Shown here: positions 36,528-41,998 of the stretch, one piece after another
How positions within the stretch are numbered: position 1 is the stretch's first letter
Layout of the letters: every line of letters begins with the position of its first letter
Assembly (NCBI GenBank): GCA_903835255.1
Contig: CAILMI010000013.1
Coordinates: 1-64,000, forward strand
DNA length: 64,000 nt
Source of the DNA: an uncultured Verrucomicrobia subdivision 3 bacterium
Lineage (GTDB): Bacteria > Verrucomicrobiota > Verrucomicrobiia > Limisphaerales > UBA11358
Direction: 5' to 3'
Made by a program: the position numbers and the translations under genes
The notes under the pieces: model-generated
Database searches by the model: none
Told to the model about the DNA's origin: nothing
The model's input: only the letters and a program-made list of their open reading frames with translations

Positions 36528-37892
36528 TCAAACCAGCTTGCCCAATTTACGGATTTCAGGCCAGATCCAGGCGACCGCCAGCACCACCAGAATCGAGCCC
36601 AGGCCGCCGGTGAGGGTAGAAACGATGGCCCCGGTGGCGTGGGCATTGCCCAAAACCGTCGGGGTGGTGAACAGATAAGCGACGATGCCGGCGCGGAAGC
36701 CGCCGAGCTCGTTGGAAGTACCAATGAACAGGCTGTTGACGGCCGAGACACGGCCGCGCTTCTCGTCCGGGGTCAGGGTCTGGACCAGCGTCTGTCGCAC
36801 CACCACGCTGATGTTGTCCACCGCGCCGGCCACAGCAAGCAGGGCAAAGGACAGCCAGAACCAGGAGGATGACGGGAGGGCAATCCAGCGACCGAGACTG
36901 TTGGGATTGGCGACGGCAAACAAGACGGTGGCCAGGCCGAACAGGGCGACGGACCAGAGCATGGTTTGCCCGGCCTTTTGGAGCGGCGGCCGGTGGGCGA
37001 GCAGAAACGCGCACAGCACCGCCCCCACAGCCATGGCATTGCGCAGCCAGCCCAATCCTTCCGCCCCGGCATGAAAAATATCATCCGCAAACATGGGCAG
37101 AATCGTTACCGCCCCGCCGAGCAGGACGGCAAATAGGTCCAGCGTGAGGGTGCCGAGAATGATCTTGTTCTGATAAACAAACCGGAACCCCTCAACCAGG
37201 CTTCGGGCGGAAACCGGTTCAGCGGGTTTGACCTTGTGCAGGTGGCGGATCGGCGCGACCAGTCCAAAGCACAGAAGCGATGCCAGCGCGTTAAAAACAT
37301 ACACCGCCCAGGCAGTGTTGTTCTCTTCCGCATGCGGGGTCAGCGCCACGACCAGACCGAACGCCGCCGGACCCACCACACAGGAAAACTGGAAGGCGGC
37401 GCTGTTGAAGGTGACCGCGCTGGCAAACTGCCGGTGCGGCACTAGGCTCGCCACAAACGCCGCGCTGGCCGGCCACAGAAAAGTCCGCGCCGCGCCGATC
37501 ACAAACAGGCAGAAATAAATCCAAAACACCGGCGCGGCAAAATAGGAGATCAATGCCAGACAGAGGCTCGAGGCCGCTAACAAGAGCGTCATAGCCAGGA
37601 TGATTTTTTTGCGGTTGAAAGTGTCAGCAAAATGCCCGGCCGGCACTGTGCACAGAATCATCGGAACCATCAGCGACAGCCCCACAAAAGCCAGGGACAG
37701 CGCCGAGTGCGTCCGCCGGTACAGCTCCCAATCAATCGCCACCACCAGCATCTGCTGCCCCAGCGTCGCCACAAATCGGCCAGTGAGATACCGGGCAAAA
37801 TCCCCGTTGCGCAGAACGGCGTAGGGATGATCGGCCACAGGTTTGGGCGCTGGCGCATCGGGCAAATTTTCTGGCGATTCCTGATCGTGCAT
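36528..37892 (-). CDS. Major facilitator superfamily transporter (MFS_3-like exporter)
   Basis: 454 aa with about twelve helices. The start has YAVLRNGDFARYLTGRFVATLGQQMLVV (in two parts), common in the MFS_3/enterobactin-exporter-like group, then AGHFADTFNRKKII, the MFS motif between helices 2 and 3. The second half contains VVRQTLVQTLTPDEKRGRVSAVNSLFIGTSNELGG. Likely an efflux pump for a small molecule; substrate unknown. Monocistronic; the 150-base gap to the CDF gene holds nothing I can name. Confidence 0.9.
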   Translation of the reverse strand: MHDQESPENLPDAPAPKPVADHPYAVLRNGDFARYLTGRFVATLGQQMLVVAIDWELYRRTHSALSLAFVGLSLMVPMILCTVPAGHFADTFNRKKIILAMTLLLAASSLCLALISYFAAPVFWIYFCLFVIGAARTFLWPASAAFVASLVPHRQFASAVTFNSAAFQFSCVVGPAAFGLVVALTPHAEENNTAWAVYVFNALASLLCFGLVAPIRHLHKVKPAEPVSARSLVEGFRFVYQNKIILGTLTLDLFAVLLGGAVTILPMFADDIFHAGAEGLGWLRNAMAVGAVLCAFLLAHRPPLQKAGQTMLWSVALFGLATVLFAVANPNSLGRWIALPSSSWFWLSFALLAVAGAVDNISVVVRQTLVQTLTPDEKRGRVSAVNSLFIGTSNELGGFRAGIVAYLFTTPTVLGNAHATGAIVSTLTGGLGSILVVLAVAWIWPEIRKLGKLV

Positions 37893-38358: not shown

Positions 38359-38556
38359 ATGAATGAACCTGAAGATTCTTCCCCCGCACCTCAATACCGA
38401 TGGCCCTGGGTGGTGCTGGCGTTGTTCCTGCTGGGCGTGTTGCTGGCTGTGGTCTGGATGAGCTATGCCGTCCGGCGCGAACGGGAGCAGCGGAATTTCA
38501 GCGCGCCGCTGCCGGGCCAGGCTCCGGCGAGCCCGTCGCCGGCGGGGTCTCCTTAA
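38359..38556 (+). CDS. Possible small single-pass membrane protein
   Basis: 65 aa from the ATG at 38359 (an ATG at 38326 is also in frame). A polar start (MNEPEDSSPAPQYRWP) precedes one strong membrane helix, WVVLALFLLGVLLAVVWMSY, a basic stretch VRREREQR and a Pro/Ala tail. This order suggests an inner-membrane protein with a basic cytoplasmic face. The last 59 bases overlap the 3' end of the convergent sulfatase-fold gene. No family recognised and no partner gene, so it is uncertain. Confidence 0.5.
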   Translation: MNEPEDSSPAPQYRWPWVVLALFLLGVLLAVVWMSYAVRREREQRNFSAPLPGQAPASPSPAGSP

Positions 38557-39769
38557 TCGGTCGGCGTGCGCTTTCCTTCCGGGCGGCAGAGGAGCCTGTC
38601 CGTTCGCCGCACAGCCAGGACCACAGGGATGTCCCCGGGGATCCGACGCTCGGTTTCACCAGAGCAATCTGCAGAGCGGTCGGCGCCCAATCCACCGCGC
38701 GGCTCGGCTGATCACTGACCCGTCCGGCCGGGATTTTCCCGGGGCAACTGACCAGCAGCGGCACGCGCAGGTCATTGGAGGCGAGATTGCTCCTGAAAAA
38801 ATCCGGATTCACACCGCCCCCCGCCCGAGCCGGGCCGGCGCTTGAGAAAAAGACTATGGTGTTGCTGACCTGCTGATTCTTCTCCAGCTGTTCCACCAGC
38901 TTCCCGATATCCCCATCCAGACGGGCAATCATCGCCGCCCGATTTTTTTCCGGGGCCGGCCAGGCCTCACTCGAAAAGGGGGCATCGGTGGGCACCTGCA
39001 TGCCATTGCCGGTGCGCCGGGCCAGGGCGGCATTCGGTCGCGGCGTGGGATAATTCAGCAAGAGAAAAAATGGGCGATAACGGTTGGCAGACTCTGGGCG
39101 GTTGTTACTGATAAAATTCATGGCCGCCTTGGTGTAAAGGTCCGGGAGATATTGCCCCCGCTTGCCATCGACATTGGAATAGAGCATTTCTCGGCCGACG
39201 AAATCCTCAATTCGGTTATTGGTGGCATTGAGGAGACTCCGGGGCGCATACCGCCAGATGTAATCCACGTAATAATTTTCCGCGTCCGCAGCATCAAAAT
39301 AGCCGGCGAACTCGTCGAAGCCCCTGTCCCAGGGAGCGCTGCCGCTCGCCTCATTGCCCAGCTCCCATTGGCCGATCAAACCGGTGTGATAGCCGGACCG
39401 TTTCAGCTCCTGCGTCACGGTGACGATGCCAGGCTGCCGCTGTCCGGCCGGGGCCATTTCCTGCCCAAACAACAGCACGGCCTGCGCAGACGAACCAGCG
39501 CCGGCTCCCGTAGCATACCGGGTGAAGCGCGCCCCCCCGGCAGCCAGACGATCCAGGTTTGGCGTCGCGTATTTCGTCTGGCCATAACAGCTCAAATCGC
39601 CGTAGCCCAGACTGTCCGCCACAATCCACAGGATGTTCGGGCGGCGCGGGACCGCCGGCGTCGCGGCCGGGGCGACGTTGGTGAAGAGGGCGGAGAGACT
39701 TTCGGCGCGAATGCCCCCGGCAATTCCCGAAAAGGCTGCCAGCAGAATCAATAGAGAATGGCGTTTCAT
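38498..39769 (-). CDS. Sulfatase-fold protein lacking catalytic residues (pseudosulfatase)
   Basis: 423 aa from the ATG at 39769, which gives a signal peptide (MKRHSLLILLAAFSG); the longer frame adds 25 non-signal residues. The alkaline-phosphatase/sulfatase fold is clear: RRPNILWIVADSLGYGDLSC, TPNLDRLAAGGARFTRY, LKRSGYHTGLIGQWELG, PWDRGFDEFAGYF, VPLLVSCPGKIPAG. The active site is lost: metal ligand DD is DS (52-53), the formylglycine motif CxPxR is GSSAQ (92-96), GKWHLG is GQWELG (133-138), and TSDNG near 340 is SSAGP. A non-catalytic, perhaps carbohydrate-binding role is likely. No anaerobic sulfatase-maturating enzyme or formylglycine-generating enzyme is nearby. Confidence 0.85.
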   Translation of the reverse strand: MKRHSLLILLAAFSGIAGGIRAESLSALFTNVAPAATPAVPRRPNILWIVADSLGYGDLSCYGQTKYATPNLDRLAAGGARFTRYATGAGAGSSAQAVLLFGQEMAPAGQRQPGIVTVTQELKRSGYHTGLIGQWELGNEASGSAPWDRGFDEFAGYFDAADAENYYVDYIWRYAPRSLLNATNNRIEDFVGREMLYSNVDGKRGQYLPDLYTKAAMNFISNNRPESANRYRPFFLLLNYPTPRPNAALARRTGNGMQVPTDAPFSSEAWPAPEKNRAAMIARLDGDIGKLVEQLEKNQQVSNTIVFFSSAGPARAGGGVNPDFFRSNLASNDLRVPLLVSCPGKIPAGRVSDQPSRAVDWAPTALQIALVKPSVGSPGTSLWSWLCGERTGSSAARKESARRPIKETPPATGSPEPGPAAAR

Positions 39770-39906: not shown

Positions 39907-41193
39907 TTAGGTTTCATTGCGTTTGCCAAACTCCGGCTCCAGCGGAATTTTAGCAGCGACAATGAAGCTTGGAATGGTTGCTACCAAAACCCACACGAAA
40001 AAATGCCGGTACCCCAGATGCTCCTGTAGCCAGCCGCTCCACATCCCCGGCAGCATCATGCCCAGCGCCATGAAGCCGGTACAGATGGCGTAATGCGCCG
40101 TTGGATGCGGACCGCGCGCCATGCGGATCATATAGAGGATGAAAGCCGTAAATCCAAAGCCGTAGCCGAACTGCTCAACGGCGATGGCCAAGCCGATGGC
40201 GGCTAGGTTTTCGGGCTGAGCATAGGCCAGCCAGATGAAGACCGCGTCGGGCAAATGAATTGCGAACAGCATGGGCCAGAGCCAGGATTTCAGGCCGTGC
40301 CGCGCCACCGCAAAGCCCCCAAGCAGAGCACCGACGATGAATACGGCGACCCCGGTAGTGCCATAGATCAGGCCCAGCTGGTCATTGGTAACGCCTAGGC
40401 CGCCCGCGGCGCGGGGGTCGAGCAGAAACGGCTGCACCAGCTTCACTAGCTGCGCCTCCCCCAGCCGGTAAAGCAGTAGGAACGAAAGCATCCAGCCAAT
40501 TCCCGGCTTTTGAAAAAAAGTGCCGAAGGTCTTCAGGAATTCCGCGCCGAAGGTCCCTGCAACAACCGCCCCGGCGGCGCGGTCGGACGCAGGGCGCGGC
40601 AACATCCACCCGTGATACAGCCCGAAGCACAGATAGACTCCGGCCAGAAGGGCAAAACAGGACGACCAGGCGGTCGCGTAACTTCCCGTGCGCTGGTGGA
40701 GCTCCCCCGCCAGGATCACCAGACCACCCTGCGCCGCAATCGTTGCCACCCGGTAAAAAAGGCTCCGGATGCCGACGAAAAACGACTGCTCGCGCTCTGT
40801 GGTCGCCAGCATATAAAAACCGTCCGCGGCGATGTCGTGGGTGGCCGAGCTGAAGGAGAGCAGCCAAAAAAAAGCCAGCGTGAGCTGGAAAAAATGCGGT
40901 CCCGGAATTGTCAGCGCCACGCCGGCCAGCCCCGCACCGAGGAGCAGCTGCATGGCCCAGATCCATTGGCGCCGGGTCCGGAAGAGATCCACCAGCGGAC
41001 TCCACAGCGGCTTGAGGACCCAGGGCAGATAAAGCCACCCGGTGTAAAACGCGATGGCGGCATTGGACACGCCCAGGTTTTTGTAGAGCACTACCGACAC
41101 CGATGCCACCAGCACATTCGGCAATCCCTCCGCCATATAAAGCGTGGGAATCCAGGACCACGGGCTGCGGGCAACAGGTTGGCGGGCGGTCAT
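39907..41193 (-). CDS. AmpG-like MFS permease
   Basis: 428 aa from the ATG at 41193; the frame is open to 41538, but that part overlaps the divergent DUF554 gene and is not coding. About twelve helices, starting SPWSWIPTLYMAEGLPNVLV, with SATHDIAADGFYMLATTERE and QLVKLVQPFLLDPRAAGGLG. These are AmpG/RhtX-type features. AmpG imports anhydro-muropeptides for cell-wall recycling. The homology is to the family at large; substrate could also be a siderophore-like compound. Confidence 0.82.
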   Translation of the reverse strand: MTARQPVARSPWSWIPTLYMAEGLPNVLVASVSVVLYKNLGVSNAAIAFYTGWLYLPWVLKPLWSPLVDLFRTRRQWIWAMQLLLGAGLAGVALTIPGPHFFQLTLAFFWLLSFSSATHDIAADGFYMLATTEREQSFFVGIRSLFYRVATIAAQGGLVILAGELHQRTGSYATAWSSCFALLAGVYLCFGLYHGWMLPRPASDRAAGAVVAGTFGAEFLKTFGTFFQKPGIGWMLSFLLLYRLGEAQLVKLVQPFLLDPRAAGGLGVTNDQLGLIYGTTGVAVFIVGALLGGFAVARHGLKSWLWPMLFAIHLPDAVFIWLAYAQPENLAAIGLAIAVEQFGYGFGFTAFILYMIRMARGPHPTAHYAICTGFMALGMMLPGMWSGWLQEHLGYRHFFVWVLVATIPSFIVAAKIPLEPEFGKRNET

Positions 41194-41275
41194 CGGCCCC
41201 AGATTACAGACTTTGCGGGCGGGCGCAAAAAAATTCCAGCTTGGCAGCAGGGTCTCGCACTGGTTGAGTGACGGG

Positions 41276-41998
41276 ATGACCGGCGCATTTCTCAATGCCT
41301 GTGGAATCCTGATCGGCGCGCTTTTCGGGCTCGCGCAACGCGCTCCCCTGTCCGCGTCCACCCAGCATTTTTTCCGGCGCGCGCTCGGAGCGGCGGCGGC
41401 TTTTCTCGGCCTGCGGCTGGTCTGGCTGCACGTCAACGGCACGTTCTGGCCCTGCGCGAAGCAACTGCTCATCGCCTTGCTGTCCCTCACCCTCGGCAAC
41501 TGGGCCGGACGGCTGCTGCGCCTGCAAAAAAACTCCAACCGCCTGGGGCGATTCGCCAGCCGGGCGATTACCTCCGCGCAGACCGGCGCAGCGCCTCATT
41601 CAGGGCAGGGCTTCGTTGCCTGTGCGATTTTGTTCTGCGCTGCGCCGTTGGGACTGCTCGGGGCGGTGACCGAGGGCGTGTCCGGGGATTATTATCTATT
41701 CGCGGCCAAAGCCGTGATGGACGGGCTAGCGATGACCGGCTTCGTCAAAATGGTGGGATGGCCTGCCGCGCTTTCGGCGTTTCCGGCGTACGCCCTTCTC
41801 GGCGGGCTGACGCTGGCCTGCCACGCCTGTGGAAAACCGCTGCTCGAGGCGCCTGGACTGATGGATTCCGTTAACACCGTCGCCGGCTTGATTACCTGCA
41901 CCATCGCATTGGTGATCCTAGAGGCCCGCAAGGTCGAGCTGACTAATTATCTGCCCGCCCTGGCCATCGCCCCCCTCCTTACCTGGCTGACGCGCTGA
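41276..41998 (+). CDS. DUF554 membrane protein
   Basis: 240 aa from the ATG at 41276, or from a TTG at 41264. Seven or so membrane helices with the DUF554 pattern: TGAFLNACGILIGALFGL at the start, LLSLTLGNWAGRLL, ILFCAAPLGLLGAVTEG, FAAKAVMDGLAMTGF, and GLMDSVNTVAGLI near the end. The family is of unknown function, thought to be a transporter. Divergent from the AmpG-like gene with an 82-base gap, and followed by a strong palindrome with T-run. Confidence 0.9.
   Translation: MTGAFLNACGILIGALFGLAQRAPLSASTQHFFRRALGAAAAFLGLRLVWLHVNGTFWPCAKQLLIALLSLTLGNWAGRLLRLQKNSNRLGRFASRAITSAQTGAAPHSGQGFVACAILFCAAPLGLLGAVTEGVSGDYYLFAAKAVMDGLAMTGFVKMVGWPAALSAFPAYALLGGLTLACHACGKPLLEAPGLMDSVNTVAGLITCTIALVILEARKVELTNYLPALAIAPLLTWLTR

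Follow-up and report, generated by a model that had tools for sequence, protein, structure and literature searches.

Gene, fold, and neighborhood

The window analyzed here, the whole stretch of 64,000 nucleotides, carries a complete reading frame for a sulfatase-like protein at 38498-39769 of the minus strand, running from an ATG at 39769 to a stop codon at 38498. Its 423-residue product, called the pseudosulfatase below, is of the exported type, with a typical Sec-type signal peptide (approximately residues 1 to 22) and a sulfatase alpha/beta core (residues 42 to 390), and it has no C-terminal subdomain. A first interpretation made from the letters alone (the sequence-only reading) had proposed a sulfatase-fold frame with a signal peptide at this position, and this was borne out: residues 44 to 369 matched the Pfam Sulfatase family (PF00884; E, 5.8e-34), and a phmmer search against solved S1 sulfatases returned 7an1 (E, 3.5e-37). 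An AlphaFold2 model built on a shallow alignment was of moderate confidence (pLDDT 62; pTM 0.67) and resembled S1 sulfatases across the core (Foldseek E, 4e-24; VIA Z, 33); since the input alignment contained active relatives and the cleft is the least certain region, the model backs the fold, whereas for details of the cleft it does not count as independent evidence. The protein shares with the S1 formylglycine-dependent sulfatases (PF00884; nearest structures 7an1, 7ana, 7stt, 6bia, and 9hh2) the fold and element order across residues 42 to 390, the signal peptide, and 23 to 32% identity. In contrast to them, it lacks the nucleophile motif, the metal site, the active-site Lys and His residues, and the C-terminal subdomain.

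Directly upstream on the same strand, across a 137-nt gap, lies the gene for an AmpG-family MFS transporter (39907-41340, minus strand), the sole AmpG-family match in this genome. Tail-to-tail with the pseudosulfatase gene, a gene for a 65-residue, single-helix membrane protein (38359-38556, plus strand) overlaps its last 59 bp, so that the two convergent genes share 38498-38556. An MFS efflux-type transporter gene (36528-37892, minus strand) follows downstream and is often part of the conserved neighborhood. Across the genus, an AmpG-family transporter stood beside the pseudosulfatase on the same strand at 21 of 26 loci (0 of 11 in the outgroup), and a homologue of the small membrane protein adjoined it at 20 of the 26. 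Two genomes (G003 and G017) retain the transporter, small protein, and efflux genes in order, with the pseudosulfatase cleanly absent. These natural deletions fall between the transporter and small-protein genes (L110:7521-9059 and L111:6634-8172). Given this clean loss, the pseudosulfatase is dispensable, and it is not strictly tied to the transporter.

Active-site residues of the window protein

Thirteen active-site positions were scored in every row of the alignment; they were chosen because they show little or no variation among active orthologues belonging to other families within the order. This scoring, which the sequence-only reading had suggested, found 1 of 13 positions kept in the window protein (Asp52), 0 to 5 in its clade, and 12 or 13 in fully active-looking orthologues. 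The claim that all main catalytic residues had been replaced was thus slightly too strong: Asp52 is kept and the other 12 are lost. The C/S-x-P-x-R nucleophile motif was indeed changed from CxPxR to GSSAQ (G92-S93-S94-A95-Q96 versus CAPSR), and a search for an intact nucleophile motif elsewhere in the protein found none. Among the metal ligands (DD ... DN), the second Asp of the first pair has become S53, as the earlier reading of DD as DS implied, but D52 remains; the later Asp and Asn are replaced by A311 and G312, confirming that the SDN metal site is lost (S-A311-G312). The His after SDN is missing as well.

The three sulfate-contacting residues (Lys, His, and Lys) have gone too: the first is Q134, the second is R244, and the third, the Lys of GIKRDLYEGG, falls inside a deletion. 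In active sulfatases, the Lys of GKW and the His here aligned with IPHA contact the sulfate group, as established for arylsulfatase A. The reported change of GKWHLG to GQWELG holds for the Lys (G-Q134-W in place of GKW) but not for the His, because the nearest active relatives carry GKW(G/A)LG and E136 therefore marks no lost catalytic His. Several further losses had been overlooked: both His residues of HAHNYYP (now D162 and E164), the His of IPHA (R244), the GIKRDLYEGG Lys, and the C-terminal subdomain (R-x-G-x-WK ... LY(N/D)L), without which the protein does not have the two-domain S1 architecture. As a control, the CxPxR, DD, and SDNG motifs were normal in the genome's other sulfatases. 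The C-terminal subdomain is kept in six clade members (L005, L006, L008, L009, L011, and L026) and lacking in most. The last 30-odd residues of the window protein have no similarity to orthologues, and its C-terminal extension is absent from the nearest one.

The sequence-only reading had also offered binding of sulfated glycans as a role. With the Lys and His positions now occupied by Glu or Gln and by Arg, and with the metal site gone, the old pocket should no longer accept sulfate, leaving the proposal unsupported at least for that site. Sulfate could conceivably bind at another surface of the protein.

A single clade and the selection acting on it

Of 49 genomes of the genus, 43 had exactly one close match (E below 1e-60); an ortholog search in named genomes returned only Verrucomicrobiales bacterium STB_13 (G001) and a Flavobacteriaceae relative. 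The 31 orthologues compared, taken from the 43 matches and covered completely or almost completely, formed one clade (SH-aLRT 99) that branched within active sulfatases from other families, with identities to the window protein of 40 to 67%. All 31 frames were intact except for one cut by a contig end, and free of the pseudogene decay in close relatives that would have spoken against the sequence-only reading; the stop codons that the search reported in three orthologues mark the natural end of the protein. Core dN/dS, a comparison against orthologues likewise suggested at the outset, was 0.14 to 0.24 in nine clade pairs versus 0.07 to 0.14 in three active pairs, with high dS making single values rough in some pairs and with L009/L011 (dS, 0.19) and L005/L006 (0.39) unsaturated. 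At about twice the dN/dS of active relatives, the clade is under weaker constraint than they are. Nevertheless, these values, together with the 31 orthologues and the presence in 43 of 49 genomes, indicate purifying selection after the catalytic residues were lost.

New residues have also become fixed. Ser60 was present in all 31 clade rows (Gly in all active rows), as was Trp147, which never occurred in active rows; Tyr85, Gln120, and Pro176 were nearly fixed in the clade and absent or rare in active relatives. Given the single clade, the absence of any broken copy, the low dN/dS, and these fixed new residues, we conclude that the clade represents a pseudoenzyme family passed on vertically and maintained by purifying selection. 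The earlier suggestion of selection for a noncatalytic role gains support from the same data (31 undecayed orthologues, 43 of 49 genomes, dN/dS of 0.14 to 0.24, and clade-specific invariant residues). The window copy changed faster than the G001 copy, and so did its neighboring genes, so its rate is lineage-wide; we rejected decay of the window copy alone on this ground.

We consider it unlikely that the gene is vestigial across the genus, with catalysis gone and the frame drifting slowly to loss without present function. The clean loss in G003 and G017, the dN/dS above that of active sulfatases, the wide loss of the C-terminal subdomain, and the repeated loss of the nucleophile in the orthologue group (at least three times; see below) would all fit such drift. 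However, the frames have stayed undecayed at 40 to 67% identity to the window protein, dN/dS is well below 1, the gene persists in 43 of 49 genomes, new residues are fixed in 31 of 31 rows, and the neighbors of the window copy share its faster change.

A second alternative, that the cleft now performs other chemistry with Glu134, Arg244, His52, or Ser60 newly catalytic, appears about as improbable. Purifying selection acts clade-wide, Ser60 is universal, His52 occurs in 18 of 31 rows, and 22 of 31 rows combine Glu134 with Arg244, substitutions that go together (Fisher P = 0.002, uncorrected for relatedness). Yet every one of the old catalytic positions varies within the clade, which has kept no metal ligand set, and the pair is missing from 9 of 31 rows and His52 from 13, the window protein being among them in both cases (it has Gln134 with Arg244).

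Ser-x-Pro-x-Arg persists in four clade members (L002, L003, L009, and L011), all of which have lost the active-site Lys, the Asn, the second Asp, and most of the His residues; L002 additionally lacks both SDN residues. Most of the metal and sulfate contacts are thus gone in these four although the nucleophile motif is still there, which suggests that those contacts disappeared first. The same motif could be taken to mean that a serine-type sulfatase is still active in part of the family, with the window copy a recent casualty, but the missing residues of these four make this very improbable. Outside the clade, a sister in another family, L036 of G058, is also dead, and the nucleophile Cys is lost in L042 (G051), L031 (G042), and L045 (G047); the tree requires at least three nucleophile losses in the orthologue group. 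In the latter three, Gly, Asp, or Asn stands in for the Cys, and the other sites are mostly or partly intact. In three other families, the orthologue and an FGE-like gene are arranged tail-to-tail (G042, G049, and G051), as would fit an active, formylglycine-dependent ancestor.

Loss of catalytic residues has precedents. SulfAtlas lists nine S1 sequences from Lentisphaerae and Planctomycetes that are putatively inactive and lack the positive residue of the motif (PMC5066984). Like the pseudosulfatase, they are S1 homologues of related phyla with active-site loss; they differ in being reported to lack one motif residue, whereas the pseudosulfatase clade, inherited vertically, has lost the entire set. 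Retention of a fold under selection without its catalytic motif is likewise a feature of pseudoenzymes in general (PMC10211241). In the open-access literature searched, we found neither a sulfatase pseudoenzyme clade nor such a family with a known role. Both the fold and the pseudoenzyme concept are already known.

Few enzyme families have expanded as much in Verrucomicrobiota as the sulfatases, and counts of PF00884 matches are readily taken as a gauge of sulfated-polysaccharide use. In two genomes of the genus (G011 and G025), the dead protein is the sole PF00884 match, and in some others it is one of two, so the count misleads. With active sisters, clean natural deletions, and members at successive intermediate stages (motifs decayed in part; C-terminal subdomain either retained or gone), the clade is a good system for studying how enzymes turn into nonenzymatic proteins and why these are then retained.

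Probable role of the pseudosulfatase and a possible link to the transporter

At the level of sequence, the loss of the catalytic set, its single origin, the conservation of the protein, and its mostly fixed locus are established. We consider it likely that the protein is an exported, S1-sulfatase-derived pseudoenzyme kept by purifying selection as a stand-alone fold. The nucleophile motif, divalent-metal site, and sulfate contacts would have been lost early in the history of this one Verrucomicrobiota genus, and the stand-alone fold would then have been retained under selection. Since a single intact copy is retained by nearly every species of the genus, in most cases at the same locus, the protein probably has a nonenzymatic job. 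Our best guess is that it resides in the periplasm and acts there by binding a partner protein or an envelope-derived ligand. The occurrence of Glu134 and Arg244 in 22 of 31 rows, changing together, suggests a salt bridge in place of sulfate; in such a remodeled cleft, Glu and Arg would replace the sulfate-holding Lys and His, and the bridge may close the old pocket.

A link to the adjoining AmpG-like transporter is a lead only. Two observations weaken the case for tight functional coupling: G003 and G017 have kept the transporter intact although the pseudosulfatase gene next to it is gone, and some genomes have the pseudosulfatase with no transporter alongside. Because the gene has been cleanly lost in those two genomes, the shared position may owe as much to common descent as to joint function. 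We consider it improbable that the fold serves as the periplasmic partner or ligand-binding part of an AmpG-type transporter locus, with the Glu-Arg pair replacing the sulfate-binding residues. In some relatives, the N-terminal half of the AmpG-like transporter carries, between two of its helices, an extra domain of ∼190 residues (L056:3063-5090, L059:9566-11644, L062:6335-8197, L064:8754-10655, and L088:6159-8168), which the window copy lacks. This domain has a Calx-beta-like look and is probably on the periplasmic side.
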